From: Cytophagaceae bacterium
GTDB lineage: Bacteria > Bacteroidota > Bacteroidia > Cytophagales > Flexibacteraceae
Direction: 5' to 3'
Length of the DNA stretch: 35,182 bases
Assembly (NCBI GenBank): GCA_027487695.1
Contig: JAIYDB010000025.1
Coordinates: 1-35,182, forward strand
Under the pieces are notes generated by a model. The model did no database searches and was not told the DNA's origin. It worked only from the letters and a program-made list of their open reading frames with translations. This document shows positions 3,309-9,552 of this stretch, one piece after another. Made by a program: the position numbers and the translations under genes. Position 1 is the first letter of the stretch; every line of letters begins with the position of its first letter.

Positions 3309-4172
3309 CTAAACTTTGGCAGGTGAAAGTTTAAAACTATTCCTTAAAAGAAAGGCAGCCACTAATTCTATTCCTGTAAAAACTGCCATAGATCCTGCTA
3401 TGCTACTATTCCACCATAAGGCTAAGTAATAACCACCAATGGCAGCTGCTACGCCAAATAGAATGGCTAAAACCATCATTTGTTTAAATTGTGTAGTTAG
3501 CAAATAAGCCGCTGATGCTGGCACCACCATTAAGGCAACCACCAATATTGCCCCGACAGCATCAAAAGTGGTTACTGTAGTAACTGATACCAATGCCATA
3601 AGCACCTGATTCCAAAAGGCCACGTTAATGCCTATGGCAGCAGCGTAATTAGGATCGAACGAGGTTAGGAAAAATTCTTTGAAGAAAATACCGATTACCA
3701 AGGAAATGATTAGGATTACAACTCCCATTACATAGGCTATTCTTGGACCAAATTCAAGTCCTGTTGCGGAGCTAATTAGATCAAATGGAACCAATGCAAT
3801 TTCTCCATACAGTACACAATCTTGGTCTAAATCTACCTGACTTGCAAAAGCTGTCAGTAAGATTACGCCACCAGCAAAAAGCCAAGTAAATGTTACTCCA
3901 ATGGCCGCATCTGATTGTAAACCAGCTTTTTTGTGTAGAAATTCGATAAATAAAGAACTGAAAACGCCAGCAGCAACTGCACCTGCCAGCATTACATAAT
4001 TATCTCTTGAGCCACTGATTAGGAATGCCAAAACTATACCAGGCAAAACTGCGTGGCTAATCGCATCTGATACCATGGACATTTTCCGAAGCACCAAAAA
4101 GCACCCAGGTATAGCACAGGCTATTGCCACTAAGCAACCAGATAATAGTATATAAAATTCTTCTAATGCCAT
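3309..4172 (-). CDS. Metal ABC transporter permease (ZnuB/MntB/TroC-like, ABC-3 family)
   Basis: A 287-residue integral membrane protein with about eight hydrophobic segments, the usual length for ABC-3 permeases that import Zn, Mn or Fe. Recognisable family features are the N-terminal CFLVLRKMSMVSDAISHAVL stretch (24-43), LQSDAAIGVTF around residue 90, the VDLDQDCVLYGEIALVP region after the third or fourth helix, and a C-terminal DAVGAILVVALMVVPASAAY block. The VDLDQDCVLYGE segment resembles the Mn/Fe-type permeases (TroD/SitD) more than ZnuB, but the metal cannot be fixed from sequence. The ATP-binding protein and substrate-binding protein expected beside such a permease are absent: upstream is a divergent gene and downstream is parC. 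They must be elsewhere in the genome. Confidence 0.88.
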   Translation of the reverse strand: MALEEFYILLSGCLVAIACAIPGCFLVLRKMSMVSDAISHAVLPGIVLAFLISGSRDNYVMLAGAVAAGVFSSLFIEFLHKKAGLQSDAAIGVTFTWLFAGGVILLTAFASQVDLDQDCVLYGEIALVPFDLISSATGLEFGPRIAYVMGVVILIISLVIGIFFKEFFLTSFDPNYAAAIGINVAFWNQVLMALVSVTTVTTFDAVGAILVVALMVVPASAAYLLTTQFKQMMVLAILFGVAAAIGGYYLALWWNSSIAGSMAVFTGIELVAAFLLRNSFKLSPAKV

Positions 4173-4248: not shown

Positions 4249-5004
4249 ATGAAATTTAACTTAAAAATAGCTGCCCTAGCCATTGCTTTATCTGGGCTTT
4301 GGGGTTGCGGCAAAGATAGTGGTACCACTTCAAATCCAGAATTTGGTACAGTAAAGGTAGTTATCAACCATAAAGTTAATAATCAACCTCTTGTATTGAG
4401 CACATCGGCAATTCCAGATTCTTTAGGAAATAGCGTTGTTCCTAATGCGATGTCGTTTTATTTGAGTAATTTAACTTTGAATGGAACTAAGCCATTTGTA
4501 GAAAATTTAAGCTATCACCTAGTTAGAGTAAGCGCAACTACTGATAGTTCTGTTTTCCTAGTTAAGAATGTACCTACCGGGACTTATACAGGTTTAGATA
4601 TGAGTTTTGGGGTGGATAGCGTTGCAAACGGCAGAACTGATTTTGTAGGCGACTTGGATATCTCTAATCATATGTCTTGGAATTGGGATACGGGCTACAA
4701 GTTCTTGTTATTAGAAGGTAGCTATGTTGCTCCTGGTCAACCAAATCAAGGTGTAGTTTACCATTTAGGCCGTCAAGAGGCTTTTGGCAAAATAAACTGG
4801 TCTGGCTTTAATGGTGCCGAACTAAAAGTAAGCAACGAAAAAACTACAACCTTACGTCTTATAGCTAACTACGATAAGCTATTTGAAGGTGTAAATGTAA
4901 AGACTAACTTTATGGTAATGGGACCTGGTGTTCCAAATAAAAGTGTTGCACAAAATTTCCAAAACAAGGTTATTGGTCTTGTGGGGGTGGGTAACCCTCA
5001 GTAG
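4249..5004 (+). CDS. MbnP-like lipoprotein
   Basis: A 251-residue exported lipoprotein. Residues 1-20 form a lipoprotein signal with the lipobox LWGC (Cys20). The MbnP signature is clear: a first strand ending INHKVNNQPL, MSFYLSNLTL (68-77), YHLVRV, GTYTGLDMSFGVDS (111-124), GDLDISNHMSWNWDTGYKF (134-152), LLEG and YHLG (171-174). In characterised methanobactin producers, MbnP binds copper and carries a tryptophan that its partner MbnH, a MauG-like diheme enzyme, oxidises to kynurenine. The candidate tryptophans here are Trp144, Trp146 and Trp184. The next gene is a diheme peroxidase of exactly that partner type, and its start overlaps this gene's end by 77 bases. No methanobactin precursor or MbnB/MbnC is present, so a role in copper handling is inferred from family and neighbours. 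Confidence 0.85.
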   Translation: MKFNLKIAALAIALSGLWGCGKDSGTTSNPEFGTVKVVINHKVNNQPLVLSTSAIPDSLGNSVVPNAMSFYLSNLTLNGTKPFVENLSYHLVRVSATTDSSVFLVKNVPTGTYTGLDMSFGVDSVANGRTDFVGDLDISNHMSWNWDTGYKFLLLEGSYVAPGQPNQGVVYHLGRQEAFGKINWSGFNGAELKVSNEKTTTLRLIANYDKLFEGVNVKTNFMVMGPGVPNKSVAQNFQNKVIGLVGVGNPQ

Positions 5005-5941
5005 TTTACTATTTAGTTGTGAGCGGAGTTATCCACTTCAACCTATTAGTGAAATACCAGACTATTTCCCTAAACCATTTCCTGATGATAGTTTAAATAA
5101 AAGCACTCCCCAAAGAGTGCTTTTAGGTAAAGAATTGTTTTTTGAAACACAATTAAGTGCCGATGGCAAAGTTTCCTGTGCTTCTTGTCACAATCCTAAG
5201 CTTTGGTATTCTGATAAGGTAGCGCATTCAAAATCAGCCTTTGCAGACGATAGTACCATTAGAAACGCTCCTCCAATCTTTAACTTAGCTTGGAAGAAAC
5301 CGTTCTTTTGGGATGGAGGTATTAAGAATTTAGAATCCTTATCTTTTGCACCTTTACAAAGTCATTCGGAAATGCGTGCCGATTTGGCTAAACAAATTCC
5401 CTTCTTAAATAGAAAGGTAGCTTATAGGGTTTTAGCTAGACAAGCATATAACTCGGACACAATCAACAGCCAAGTTTTAGGTAGGGCATTAGCTGTTTTT
5501 ATCAAAAGTATAACCTCTTACAACAGTAAGTGGGATAAGGTGCAACAAGGCAAATCAGCCTTTTCAGCTTATGAATTACAAGGAAAAACCATTTTTGAGC
5601 GTAAGTGCCAATCGTGCCACAAACCGCCCTTGTTTTATGATAATAAGCATCATAATATATTCCTAGATACAGATTCCTTACCGAAGGACCACGAAAAGAT
5701 TTTCTACGGTAGGTATAGGATAACCTACAATGCAGAAGATATTTATGCCTACTCTACTCCTAGTTTAAGGAACCTTGTTTTTACCGCTCCTTATATGCAC
5801 GATGGCAGGTATAAAACTTTAGAGGAGGTACTTACCTTTTATGAGGATGGATGCAGACCTATTCATCACTTAAAATCTAATGAAAAGGCACCTTTATTGG
5901 CTTTTCTCAAAACATTAACCGATTCAACAGTTGTTAAATAA
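4928..5941 (+). CDS. Diheme cytochrome c peroxidase, MbnH/MauG-like lipoprotein
   Basis: Up to 337 residues with two c-type heme sites: CASCH (84-88) and CQSCH (227-231). Other family blocks are RVLLGKELFFETQLSADGKV (63-82), APPIFNLAWKKPFFWDGG (114-131) and APYMHDGRYKTLEEVLTFYE (287-306), whose Tyr289-Met290 region usually supplies a heme ligand. A hydrophobic stretch ends in the lipobox LFSC (Cys31), giving an envelope-anchored, periplasm-facing enzyme. The only start giving the full signal peptide is GTG at 4928, inside the MbnP-like gene; GTG 4943 or TTG 4946 would also keep a basic N region and the lipobox. The pairing with MbnP suggests it oxidises a residue on that partner, but simple hydrogen peroxide reduction is the alternative. 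Confidence 0.88.
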   Translation: MFQIKVLHKISKTRLLVLWGWVTLSSLLFSCERSYPLQPISEIPDYFPKPFPDDSLNKSTPQRVLLGKELFFETQLSADGKVSCASCHNPKLWYSDKVAHSKSAFADDSTIRNAPPIFNLAWKKPFFWDGGIKNLESLSFAPLQSHSEMRADLAKQIPFLNRKVAYRVLARQAYNSDTINSQVLGRALAVFIKSITSYNSKWDKVQQGKSAFSAYELQGKTIFERKCQSCHKPPLFYDNKHHNIFLDTDSLPKDHEKIFYGRYRITYNAEDIYAYSTPSLRNLVFTAPYMHDGRYKTLEEVLTFYEDGCRPIHHLKSNEKAPLLAFLKTLTDSTVVK

Positions 5942-5943
5942 TA

Positions 5944-5977
5944 TGAGTGCAATGATTAAAATCAGTGAATGCACTCA
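5944..5977. repeat. Inverted repeat between the peroxidase and SCO genes
   Basis: TGAGTGCA (5944-5951) and TGCACTCA (5970-5977) are perfect inverted copies. Between them TGAT (5953-5956) and ATCA (5961-5964) can extend the hairpin across a small asymmetric internal loop. It starts 3 bases after the peroxidase stop. No T-run follows (AGAATTTCTC), so it is not a standard intrinsic terminator. It could stabilise or process the mRNA, attenuate transcription, or act as an operator. Confidence 0.45.
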
Positions 5978-6023
5978 GAATTTCTCTTATCCTTGCATTA
6001 ATTACTCTGATTAAATATTCACT

Positions 6024-6689
6024 ATGAAATTACAATCGCTTGTTATAGTTGTAGCTGTGTTGGGTGTACTTGGTTATTTTGGTTACAAGGCCTACAACCA
6101 GTTTACTAATGAAAAGCCTGAAAGAGAGTTGCTATACTTTGGTCCAATTAAAAAGGAGCAAGATAGTACTGTGGTTTACCATTCAGTTGCAGACTTTAAA
6201 TTCTTAGATCAGGATAGTAACGAAGTAACACCTGCCAATTTTGAAGGGAAAATCTATGTTACCGATTTCTTCTTTACCACCTGTGAAACCATTTGCCCTA
6301 TTATGAGCAAGCAAATGCAGCGCGTTGTAAAGACCTTTGAAAACGAACCTAGAGTTGCTTTCCTAAGTCATACGGTTGAACCTGAATACGATTCAGTTTC
6401 TATTCTGAAAGATTACGCCAAAGAGCACGAAGCAGATAGCAAAGTATGGCACTTTGTAACGGGGCCAAAACCAGAACTTTACAGAATGGCAAGAGAATCG
6501 TACTTCCTAGTAGATTCTCACGGTGATGGCGGTCCTGACGATTTTATCCATACTGAGCGTTTTGCACTAATTGATATGGACCAACATATTCGTGGATATT
6601 ACGACGGTACAGATAGCGCCGATGTAGATAAGCTAATTAACGAAATGAAGCTTTTACTTAAGTATTACGACTACAAGGCAAAGCAATAA
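6024..6689 (+). CDS. SCO1/SenC family copper chaperone
   Basis: A 221-residue protein anchored by an N-terminal membrane helix (about 4-22) with a thioredoxin-fold domain outside the membrane. The copper-binding CxxxC motif is CETIC (Cys87, Cys91) and the distant histidine is His176 in FIHTERFALID, so all three SCO copper ligands are present. SCO proteins deliver copper to the CuA site of cytochrome c oxidase or act as thiol-disulfide reductases. It follows the MbnP/MbnH pair by 82 bases on the same strand with no TAnnTTTG element in the gap, so the three are probably co-transcribed. That supports copper or respiratory maturation as the theme of the cluster. Confidence 0.93.
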   Translation: MKLQSLVIVVAVLGVLGYFGYKAYNQFTNEKPERELLYFGPIKKEQDSTVVYHSVADFKFLDQDSNEVTPANFEGKIYVTDFFFTTCETICPIMSKQMQRVVKTFENEPRVAFLSHTVEPEYDSVSILKDYAKEHEADSKVWHFVTGPKPELYRMARESYFLVDSHGDGGPDDFIHTERFALIDMDQHIRGYYDGTDSADVDKLINEMKLLLKYYDYKAKQ

Positions 6690-6702: not shown

Positions 6703-9552
6703 CTACCTGCCGCACATAGGCTTAAATTCGCAATACTTGCAATTATCTAAGTTTTCAGTTTGGGTAAATGGCAAGTTTATATCAAACAGGGTAGCCAGTT
6801 TTTCGCCTATCAATTGCTTAAACTTATTGAGGTATGCTGTGTCAAACGGCATACCTTTTTCATAATCCTTTATATGGATTTTGTAGTTATTGAGCGGGTC
6901 GTATCCAGGACTAATCATTTCAGCTAGCTTATAAATCCCAGGTTCAAATTGCGTATCGGTATCTTGTAAATACATAATTGCATATACAAATACTTGCATT
7001 ATAGCCTTTACTGATTTTTTAGCATTACGATCAAACAAGGCTTCCACGTTTGGCGCATCCAAAACATCTTTACCTGTTTTGTAATCGATAATTCTCAAGG
7101 TATCTCCTACCCTATCAATACGGTCTATTTTACCATTGATTTGGATTGTAAATTCAGTTCCATCGGCAAGGGTTATTGGCAATAAAAGTGGTTTTTGAGC
7201 TTCTTGGGCTACAATTTGTAAATCGGTAAGTTTTGAATCGGCTGTAATAACCTTGTTCAGGTAATTTTTAATTAGCTCAATGGTTAATATACTTTCTCCT
7301 TTTACCTCATTAGCTGGTACGCCAAAGTGTTGCTCTATCTTTTGATAAAATGCAGCGAATGCTAACTTTCTTACTTGCTCAAAATCAGACTCTTGCAAAA
7401 TGATTCCTTTGCCTTCAAATGGTTTATAACCTGCCTCAATAGATTCGTGGAAAAAAGTACCAATTGTAGCGGCATCCATACCTATAACTACCTCTTCAGG
7501 TGCGCTTAAATACGCCATCCTATGTAAGTAAAACCGTAAGCTACATTCAAGGTATTCATTAATAGCAGATGGTGAAATTCCTTTAGAAGTAGCCCCAAAG
7601 CGCTGGTTTAGCTTATTAACAATTGCAGGTGTTTTAGGAATTACAATAGGCGGAATACTTCCTGTCCCTACCGTAGTGCTTAATGCAGTTTGAGCAATTG
7701 GGTAATTTAATAGGTACTTTAACTGCCCCAAGAAACGAGTAGGTTCATTATTACTAGTATCATCAGACCCTACAGAATAAAAAATATGGGCTGTTTTACT
7801 TCTGCTTAATAACCTAAAAAACTGGTACGAGAAGTTTGCTGCAAGCTGTTCTGGCAAAGGCAATCCAAATCCCTTTCTTAAGTTATATGGCACAAATGAT
7901 CCACGGCTTTGGAACTTCGGAGGCAAACTGCCTTCATTAGCTCCAAGTATAAATACAGTATCAAAATCTAAGGTCATAGACTCTCGCAACTGCATTATTT
8001 GAAGACCAATCAATGGCTCGCCCAAGAATGGTATTTGCGCACCACCTAGTACCTGCAATGCCAAACGCCAAACATCATAAGGTTCAACACCTGAATCATA
8101 AGTGTTCAATACCTCCTGTAACGACGATAGCTGCAGGAATGCAATATGGTAAAACTGTTCTTCAAACGAATTTTTGAACCAATCGGTACTAATGTTTGGA
8201 GTAACCAAGGTATTAAGCAACTCAAACAAAAGACTAAATACTTGTGTTGGCTGGGTAACTCTAGTAAAAAGTAGCGATTGTAGTTTGCTGCCATCTATAA
8301 ATTCGGTGGCATAGACATATTGCTTTTTGTCCTTTACAATCTTTTCAATGACCTCCCTTTCAACATTAACTTGAATAGCCCTCGCATAATCATTTCTTAA
8401 AAAGGATAGCATCTCAGGACTTTCGTACTGCGTTTTACCACTTTCCCTTAAGCGGATAAAACTCTGTAAAAAGCTATATAAGGTGGTTTGCTTAAAAGGA
8501 AACTGTAAGGTTACGTTAATGGTACCAATCTCCTTAGGAATAGCGTGCAATAGCGGAATCAGGTAACTACCATCAGGAATAATTACAGCCACTTTTTGGT
8601 AAGCCGTATCGGTAGGTAGTTGTCTAATTAAGGTGGCAGTAAGTTTTACTTCTTCTGTTAAGCCACCGCATATATAGCTTTGGGTAGTTGTTTCTGGAAT
8701 GGTGATATCGTCTTTGGTGAACTTAGGCAGTGTTTCAGAAAGCAGGTAGTGTTTTTTGTACCTGTTATAATACTGACTTACCTCTGCACCATCCATTTGC
8801 AAATACCATGGGTTATAATCCCAAATAATTTTTGCTTTGTACTTTTCTAGTAATAAACATATTAGCTTTTCTTCTGCTTTACTTAATTGGTTGAAGCCTG
8901 CGATTATTATGGTTTTGTACTGGCTAGCATCGTCCCATTTGCTTTGTTCTAAGTACTCAACCGCCTTCTTTAATCTGAAGCCTCTTGCACCTGCTTTTAG
9001 CTCTTCACACTTTTCAGTGTAAAGTTTATATAGCATAGGTAATTGCTGCCAAAATGCTAAGAATCGCTGTTTTTCTTCAGTTATATCGCTGTTATCGGCA
9101 ACGTGAATACTGTTCCAGAACATCTTTAAATGTTCTATTTGTTCTGGTTCTAAGCCTTCAAAACGAAGGTCAATTTCCTTAATGCTGCCCACATATTCCA
9201 ATACCTTTTCAGCATCGGCAAGAGATGCATCTATATCATTAAAGTCGCTAAGGAGCATATTGCCCCAAGTAAAAAATCGGGAAATGGTTTCTGCATCAGG
9301 AACCAACTTTCTATAAATATTAAAAAGTGTAAATACTTGTGCATTGGTATCTAAGGCACTGGTATTGCCAATACGAGCAGCCAATTCATCAAGCGTAGTA
9401 ATTTCTGGTAGCCAAATGGTTTTGTTAAAGTGCTTACCAAGTATTTCGGAAAAAAACAAACCGGCTCTTTTGGTAGGGAATACCACAAGAGCCGATTGTA
9501 ATTCATTAGGGTCAGTAAACTGACTAGCTACGGTTGATAAAAAAGCGTTCAA
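6703..9552 (-). CDS. AddB-like PD-(D/E)XK nuclease with degenerate helicase region
   Basis: A 949-residue protein resembling AddB/RexB, the second nuclease subunit of a recombinational exonuclease. The N-terminal part is helicase-like: ALVVFPTKRAGLFFSEIL replaces a normal Walker A motif, and FILGANEGSLPP (about 534-545) matches the AddB motif III region. The nuclease lies at the end: FFHESIE (His702), GKIDRID (807-813, Asp810) and LRIIDYKTGKD (819-829, with Asp823 and Lys825). Cys670, Cys938, Cys941 and Cys947 fit the four-cysteine iron-sulfur staple of AddB-type nucleases. AddA, the active helicase partner, is not in the window. The gene is 13 bases downstream of the metallo-beta-lactamase gene, so they are probably one transcript. 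It converges with the SCO gene. Confidence 0.87.
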   Translation of the reverse strand: MNAFLSTVASQFTDPNELQSALVVFPTKRAGLFFSEILGKHFNKTIWLPEITTLDELAARIGNTSALDTNAQVFTLFNIYRKLVPDAETISRFFTWGNMLLSDFNDIDASLADAEKVLEYVGSIKEIDLRFEGLEPEQIEHLKMFWNSIHVADNSDITEEKQRFLAFWQQLPMLYKLYTEKCEELKAGARGFRLKKAVEYLEQSKWDDASQYKTIIIAGFNQLSKAEEKLICLLLEKYKAKIIWDYNPWYLQMDGAEVSQYYNRYKKHYLLSETLPKFTKDDITIPETTTQSYICGGLTEEVKLTATLIRQLPTDTAYQKVAVIIPDGSYLIPLLHAIPKEIGTINVTLQFPFKQTTLYSFLQSFIRLRESGKTQYESPEMLSFLRNDYARAIQVNVEREVIEKIVKDKKQYVYATEFIDGSKLQSLLFTRVTQPTQVFSLLFELLNTLVTPNISTDWFKNSFEEQFYHIAFLQLSSLQEVLNTYDSGVEPYDVWRLALQVLGGAQIPFLGEPLIGLQIMQLRESMTLDFDTVFILGANEGSLPPKFQSRGSFVPYNLRKGFGLPLPEQLAANFSYQFFRLLSRSKTAHIFYSVGSDDTSNNEPTRFLGQLKYLLNYPIAQTALSTTVGTGSIPPIVIPKTPAIVNKLNQRFGATSKGISPSAINEYLECSLRFYLHRMAYLSAPEEVVIGMDAATIGTFFHESIEAGYKPFEGKGIILQESDFEQVRKLAFAAFYQKIEQHFGVPANEVKGESILTIELIKNYLNKVITADSKLTDLQIVAQEAQKPLLLPITLADGTEFTIQINGKIDRIDRVGDTLRIIDYKTGKDVLDAPNVEALFDRNAKKSVKAIMQVFVYAIMYLQDTDTQFEPGIYKLAEMISPGYDPLNNYKIHIKDYEKGMPFDTAYLNKFKQLIGEKLATLFDINLPFTQTENLDNCKYCEFKPMCGR

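Follow-up and report, generated by a model that had tools for sequence, protein, structure and literature searches.

A putative copper-site MbnP-MbnH pair with a neighbouring SCO gene in a member of the Bacteroidota

Gene content and setting of the locus

The window, as the whole stretch of 35,182 nucleotides analysed here is called, contains three + strand ORFs between positions 4249 and 6689, encoding an MbnP, a diheme enzyme of the MbnH/MauG type and an SCO protein. They lie where a preliminary description of this DNA had placed an MbnP-like lipoprotein, an overlapping MbnH/MauG-like enzyme and an SCO, and the ORFs, the Pfam matches and the predicted lipobox cysteines agree with that account. 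The scores of the MbnP, CCP_MauG and SCO1-SenC matches are all above the gathering score.

4249..5004, + strand: mbnP-like lipoprotein, 251 aa (Pfam MbnP, 1.9e-34)
4943..5941 (longest ORF form 4928-5941, 337 aa), + strand: mbnH-like diheme enzyme, predicted lipoprotein (Pfam CCP_MauG, 3.9e-43)
6024..6689, + strand: SCO1/SenC-type copper chaperone, 221 aa, with a hydrophobic segment at the N-terminus (Pfam SCO1-SenC, 2.8e-25)

In its longest frame mbnH has no ATG ahead of the signal peptide, and translation therefore probably begins at the GTG at 4943 or the TTG at 4946, both inside mbnP, giving an overlap of 62 or 59 bases respectively with the mbnP stop codon counted. The SCO gene follows mbnH after a gap of 82 bases. 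Upstream of mbnP, and divergent from it, is an ABC-3 metal transporter permease (3309-4172, - strand; Pfam), and a long ORF (6703-9552) lies convergently downstream of the SCO gene. The window also carries a ParE-type toxin gene at 412-705 on the + strand (Pfam, 1.5e-08).

The host genome comprises 2.89 Mb in 129 contigs, of which the window is number 127, and is 96.4% complete. The MbnB family, PF05114, had no match anywhere in it, in keeping with the earlier statement that MbnB is absent, and a link to a methanobactin operon was rejected on this ground.

The MbnP-like protein and its conserved residues

The window MbnP scores 119.7 bits against the Pfam MbnP family (PF20243; gathering score 27), and its best NCBIfam model is TIGR04052, at 34 of 140 bits and therefore below the equivalog cut-off. 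A match to PF03718 (Glyco_hydro_49, 0.0062) was below cut-off and was disregarded. The AF2 model of the protein, built with 60 sequences, has a mean pLDDT of 91.8 and, as modelled, the protein has the MbnP fold. Foldseek returned six matches at E <=0.001, one for each chain of MbnP 7l6g, and VIA-align matched the predicted model to 7l6g with a Z of 16.3 over 207 residues (3.5 A, 18% identity), the entry after 7l6g reaching a Z of only 5.4. CorA and MopE are absent among the VIA-align matches listed, which is no evidence that their folds differ.

The sole cysteine of the window MbnP is the predicted lipobox residue, so the protein cannot carry the four-Cys motif that forms part of the molecule name of 7l6g, and which we take to belong to TIGR04052. 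A simple lipobox pattern marks 185 of the 213 distinct MbnPs, and 189 of the 202 distinct MbnHs, as apparently lipid-anchored. A charge count aimed at a surface-export signal found one Asp/Glu after the lipobox Cys in the window MbnP and one in its MbnH.

Residue conservation was determined for 141 MbnP frames from 134 fetched regions together with the window. An MbnP was called paired where an MbnH lies at most 600 bases away on the same strand, as is the case for 92 of the 141.

4306..4308, + strand: predicted lipobox Cys20; Cys in that column in 124/141
4672..4674, + strand: Met142, candidate copper ligand beside the WxW; 126/141 MbnPs and 86/92 paired, aligned with a Met of 7l6g
4678..4680, + strand: Trp144, first Trp of the WxW, predicted kynurenine site; 139/141 and 92/92 paired; aligned 7l6g counterpart, the first W of MAWNW
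4684..4686, + strand: Trp146, second Trp of the WxW; 131/141 and 90/92 paired
4762..4764, + strand: His172 (YHLG), candidate copper ligand; 126/141 and 88/92 paired; aligned 7l6g counterpart, the His of VHVG

The WxW is present as W144-N-W146, a motif at which oxidation would be expected, and Trp144 and Trp146, correctly numbered in the preliminary description, both lie within VGDLDISNHMSWNWDTGY. In the profile alignment to 7l6g (E 0.00041), the MxWxW and the HxG histidine coincide with the corresponding motifs of that protein. A 2021 PNAS abstract reportedly gives the first Trp of the WxW as the oxidised residue of MbnP, with a His and a Met as ligands. The alignment of homologs that had been proposed as a check on the modified Trp thus finds it here, and in every paired MbnP. 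Met224 is less widely kept (103/141 MbnPs, 72/92 paired), and the 88/92 for His172 may be a lower bound, because three of the four departures show a His a few residues off in the printed segment.

Trp144 is also kept in 36 of the 38 MbnPs that lack an MbnH within the stretch fetched, which suggests that this Trp may serve the structure or be modified by an enzyme at a distant locus. The notion that an MbnP without an enzyme has no need for the Trp does not, in its strict form, predict this retention.

The diheme enzyme and its partnership with MbnP

The best NCBIfam model for the window enzyme is TIGR04039 (MbnH, 5.7e-49), at 167 of 363 bits and again below the equivalog cut-off. When the window sequence alone was compared with the PDB, peroxidases led slightly (1iqc, 1.2e-30) and MbnH 6e1c was fifth (6.3e-29), whereas a profile of 24 relatives placed 6e1c first (6.3e-82), followed by peroxidases (from 4.5e-70) and MauG (from 4.8e-52). 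Residues of the enzyme are counted from 4943, which makes the predicted lipobox Cys residue 26.

5177..5191, + strand: heme motif 1, CASCH; C79, C82 and H83 invariant in the 24 aligned
5309..5311, + strand: Trp123 of FFWDGG, inter-heme Trp position; W in 211/220
5369..5371, + strand: Glu143, distal Glu position; invariant in the 24 aligned
5606..5620, + strand: heme motif 2, CQSCH; C222, C225 and H226 invariant in the 24 aligned
5840..5842, + strand: Tyr300, aligned with a Tyr of MbnH 6e1c and with a Met of peroxidase 1iqc

The labels of Trp123 and Glu143 are presumably those of MauG and of MauG/CCP respectively, and we take the Tyr300 site to be the axial position of the second heme. In enzymes of the MbnH/MauG type a bis-Fe(IV) state forms. 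At the Tyr300 position there are 214 Tyr, three Met and three gaps among 220 distinct enzymes, a set mostly gathered via MbnP with a profile built from such enzymes. Among the set are 28 loci retrieved separately, by searching 11 genomes of the same family with PF03150; these loci were the source of the three Met-type enzymes, none of which has an MbnP beside it. Among the MbnP-adjacent enzymes, Tyr is present in 187 of 188 and the remaining one is cut off at this point. The preliminary description had named the lack of the modified Trp, or a grouping with ordinary hydrogen-peroxide-reducing enzymes together with an unconserved gene order, as what would speak against it; neither outcome emerged, and the peroxidase reading was rejected because the Tyr/Met census and the profile ranking favour MbnH.

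Of 118 genomes sampled from the Cytophagales, the order in which the host is placed, 87 contain an MbnP. Besides the 92 paired cases, the 141 MbnPs comprise 10 with an MbnH further off in the stretch, 38 with none and one near a contig end, and the number of truly lone MbnPs is at most 38, because just 24 of these are flanked by 5 kb or more on each side. A second sample of 80 named loci (of 91 found), which was selected by MbnP pattern and draws partly on the same genomes, has 71 of 92 MbnPs paired. The distances among MbnPs and among MbnHs correlate at 0.75 over the 92 pairs, with full shuffles at <=0.16. For the 18 genomes with at least two pairs the correlation is 0.57, and none of 2000 partner swaps within genomes reached this value (mean 0.18, maximum 0.44). 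This co-divergence beyond within-genome swaps supports a specific MbnP-MbnH partnership.

Neighbouring genes and the proposed role of the locus

The SCO protein has CETIC at 87-91 and His176 where the family has a His, and we assume that the CxxxC and this His are its copper ligands. An SCO gene is present in the fetched region for 7 of the 141 MbnPs, and for two of the 92 MbnPs of the named loci, and the SCO as an obligatory third gene was rejected on these counts. Named strains with an SCO near the pair include Fibrisoma montanum (L245) and Flavobacterium soli (L253). The co-occurrence of MbnP, MbnH and SCO that had been suggested was therefore borne out for the recurrent, co-diverging pair but not for the SCO as a third core component. 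Outside the host genome, an SCO is near MbnP six times against 0.73 expected for 139 MbnP copies (P about 1e-4), an expectation that is taken from the SCO counts of the same genomes, assumes random placement, allows 12 kb for each copy and treats related genomes as independent. It sits before or after the pair, on the same strand in eight of the nine SCO loci seen (window included) and on the other strand in one, and so looks to have been recruited more than once. The host genome has two SCO genes, that of the window and another, which shares contig and strand with a COX1 gene about 4.3 kb away. All three COX1 matches of the genome are on contigs other than that of the window.

The commonest further neighbours in the related loci fall into two clusters, c2 (84 members in 75 loci) and c3 (67 loci). 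Members of c2 are small proteins with a hydrophobic segment at the N-terminus, a CxxxC and a Pro-Pro at the C-terminus, in nearly fixed spacing. The CxxxC is found in all 80 distinct sequences not cut by an end, in all of which it stands 62-70 residues from the last Pro-Pro, and PP occurs in the last six residues of 68 of these 80 as against 26 of 2273 other frames. The next gene on the same strand after c2 is mbnP (43) or mbnH (23) in 66 of 84 cases. The c3 proteins are about 300-330 aa in the examples below, with a CxxCxC-like motif at the N-terminus and, by eye, a sequence resembling an outer-membrane barrel, and are mostly encoded downstream of mbnP on the same strand. None of five c2 members scanned exceeded any curated cut-off of Pfam or NCBIfam, and two c3 members scanned had no match in either.

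L079:1566-1961 (host contig 99), L245:1606-2046 and L046:5260-5649: c2 examples
L079:1996-2916 and L082:3849-4832 (- strand): c3 examples

Judged by its sequence, c2 looks like a copper-sensing leader of the CutF/CruR type. It has the same anatomy as CutF, with a CxxxC and a C-terminal PP (PMC9973294), and with these it resembles CruR, in which the motifs are CXXC and a C-terminal RAPP (PMC9426467). The CutF paper reports that the CutF C-terminus gave no stalling in a reporter assay (PMC9973294), and a 2024 paper describes arrest by CruR and CutF as yet to be demonstrated (PMC10987492). According to a 2026 paper on CruR-linked copper transporters, a few operons contain ScoI and PCuAC genes; MbnP does not appear in its main text (PMC12914433). 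Neither c2 nor c3 is present at the window locus, which is thus without a copper-sensing leader gene.

Pairs of MbnP and MbnH outside methanobactin producers are widespread and already established in print. Conservation of the pair far beyond these producers was described in 2013 (PMC3621798), and a 2022 paper places MbnPH-like and ScoC genes among CruR-headed copper operons, not necessarily in one shared operon (PMC9426467), so that the novelty implied by the preliminary description does not stand. A methanotroph paper, also of 2022, still gives the role of the pair as unknown (PMC9601215). What is specific to the window is a lipid-anchored, cysteine-poor Bacteroidota form with an SCO neighbour. 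A search of the open-licence literature found no paper tying MbnP to Bacteroidetes, a result that shows no absence from print.

The closest comparison is with MbnP-MbnH of Methylosinus trichosporium OB3b (7l6g, 6e1c), which shares the MbnP fold, the WxW with its preceding Met, the HxG histidine and a Tyr-type diheme partner. The window pair differs in that both proteins are predicted to be lipid-anchored, MbnP has a single Cys, an SCO gene is adjacent and the genome has no MbnB-family match. Pairs covered by GenProp0940 (TIGR04039/TIGR04052) are of the same kind, although the window proteins are below both equivalog cut-offs. In CorA/CorB and MopE/SACCP of methanotrophs, too, a Cu(I) site of the kynurenine type goes with a partner that resembles diheme peroxidases; the Cu(I) site of CorA includes a kynurenine, but its Kyn62, His64 and His114 place a His two residues after the Kyn, where the window has Trp146 and hence no Kyn-x-His motif (PMC3912023). 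The CruR-headed operons with MbnPH-like, ScoC and PCuAC genes are similar in bringing MbnPH-like and SCO-type genes into copper operons, although that family is described mostly from Proteobacteria and the window locus has no leader gene (PMC9426467).

Building on the gene identities, the predicted fold, the residue conservation and the co-divergence of the pair, we consider it likely that in this member of the Bacteroidota the locus encodes MbnP and MbnH as a copper-site pair, with a second SCO beside it. MbnH, a predicted exported and lipid-anchored diheme enzyme of the Tyr type, would probably oxidise Trp144 of the neighbouring MbnP to kynurenine, by analogy with the characterised pair. The kynurenine would enable MbnP to bind a single Cu(I) close to His172 and to a Met, for which Met142 is the better-conserved candidate, and MbnP would then be an envelope protein for copper binding and acquisition. 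At the window locus the SCO is the likely taker of this copper, which would pass on most plausibly to cytochrome oxidase; this hand-over is the weakest step of the scheme. The link of the pair to copper rests on the Cu(I)-kynurenine site of the related protein CorA, the 66 of 84 leader-like c2 genes that precede mbnP or mbnH, and the excess of SCO genes near MbnP (6 vs 0.73). Against the scheme are the NCBIfam equivalog cut-offs, which neither protein reaches, the peroxidase that is the top PDB match by single sequence, the single Cys of MbnP, the rarity of SCO and its position on either side of the pair, the want of a leader gene in the window and the 38 of 141 MbnPs with no MbnH.

It is quite possible, if somewhat less than an even prospect, that the function is copper storage or acquisition only, with MbnP-MbnH self-sufficient, as CorA is thought to be in its methanotroph, and the SCO a chance neighbour with its own promoter. 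The 134 of 141 MbnPs with no SCO in the fetched region, the 82-base gap ahead of the SCO gene and the position of the other host SCO near COX1 on the same contig and strand all fit this, but chance adjacency sits poorly with the excess of SCO genes near MbnP (P about 1e-4) and with the shared strand in eight of nine loci. That MbnP, MbnH and SCO jointly provide a respiratory oxidase with the copper of its CuA site is doubtful: the CxxxC and the His at the family position in the SCO are as such a maturation device would have them, and ScoC and MbnPH-like genes are both reported among CruR-headed copper operons (PMC9426467), but none of the COX1 matches is on the window contig and SCO is no general companion of MbnP. 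With an SCO near just 7 of 141 MbnPs, oxidase maturation is kept as a hypothesis for the window locus. If the enzyme were an ordinary diheme peroxidase that reduces hydrogen peroxide, next to a structural lipoprotein, this would account for the single-sequence PDB ranking (1iqc 1.2e-30 vs 6e1c 6.3e-29), but such a reading is very improbable given the Tyr at the Met position of peroxidases, the profile that puts MbnH first and the co-divergence of the enzyme with MbnP.

Returning to the copper-site pair, a bolder and, on balance, unlikely extension is that the Cytophagales pair is a copper-starvation effector, often led by a nascent-chain copper sensor (CxxxC, Pro-Pro), and that the window holds a leaderless version with an SCO of its own joined to the pair, where an envelope lipoprotein, through its enzymatically formed kynurenine site, feeds a respiratory chaperone. 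If the chemistry of the copper-site pair holds, kynurenine-type copper sites would be common envelope parts in a large environmental group and not a methanotroph speciality. An intact pair is present in some named host strains, among them the culturable relatives Flexithrix dorotheae and Pontibacter ummariensis, so that its role could be tested by gene removal.

Further genes of these kinds are present elsewhere in the host genome. Contig 114 (L001 / L078) carries a second MbnP-MbnH pair, behind which a gene begins that resembles the proteins, labelled YHYH here, found after some other pairs, and contig 99 carries c2, c3 and a third MbnH-like gene.
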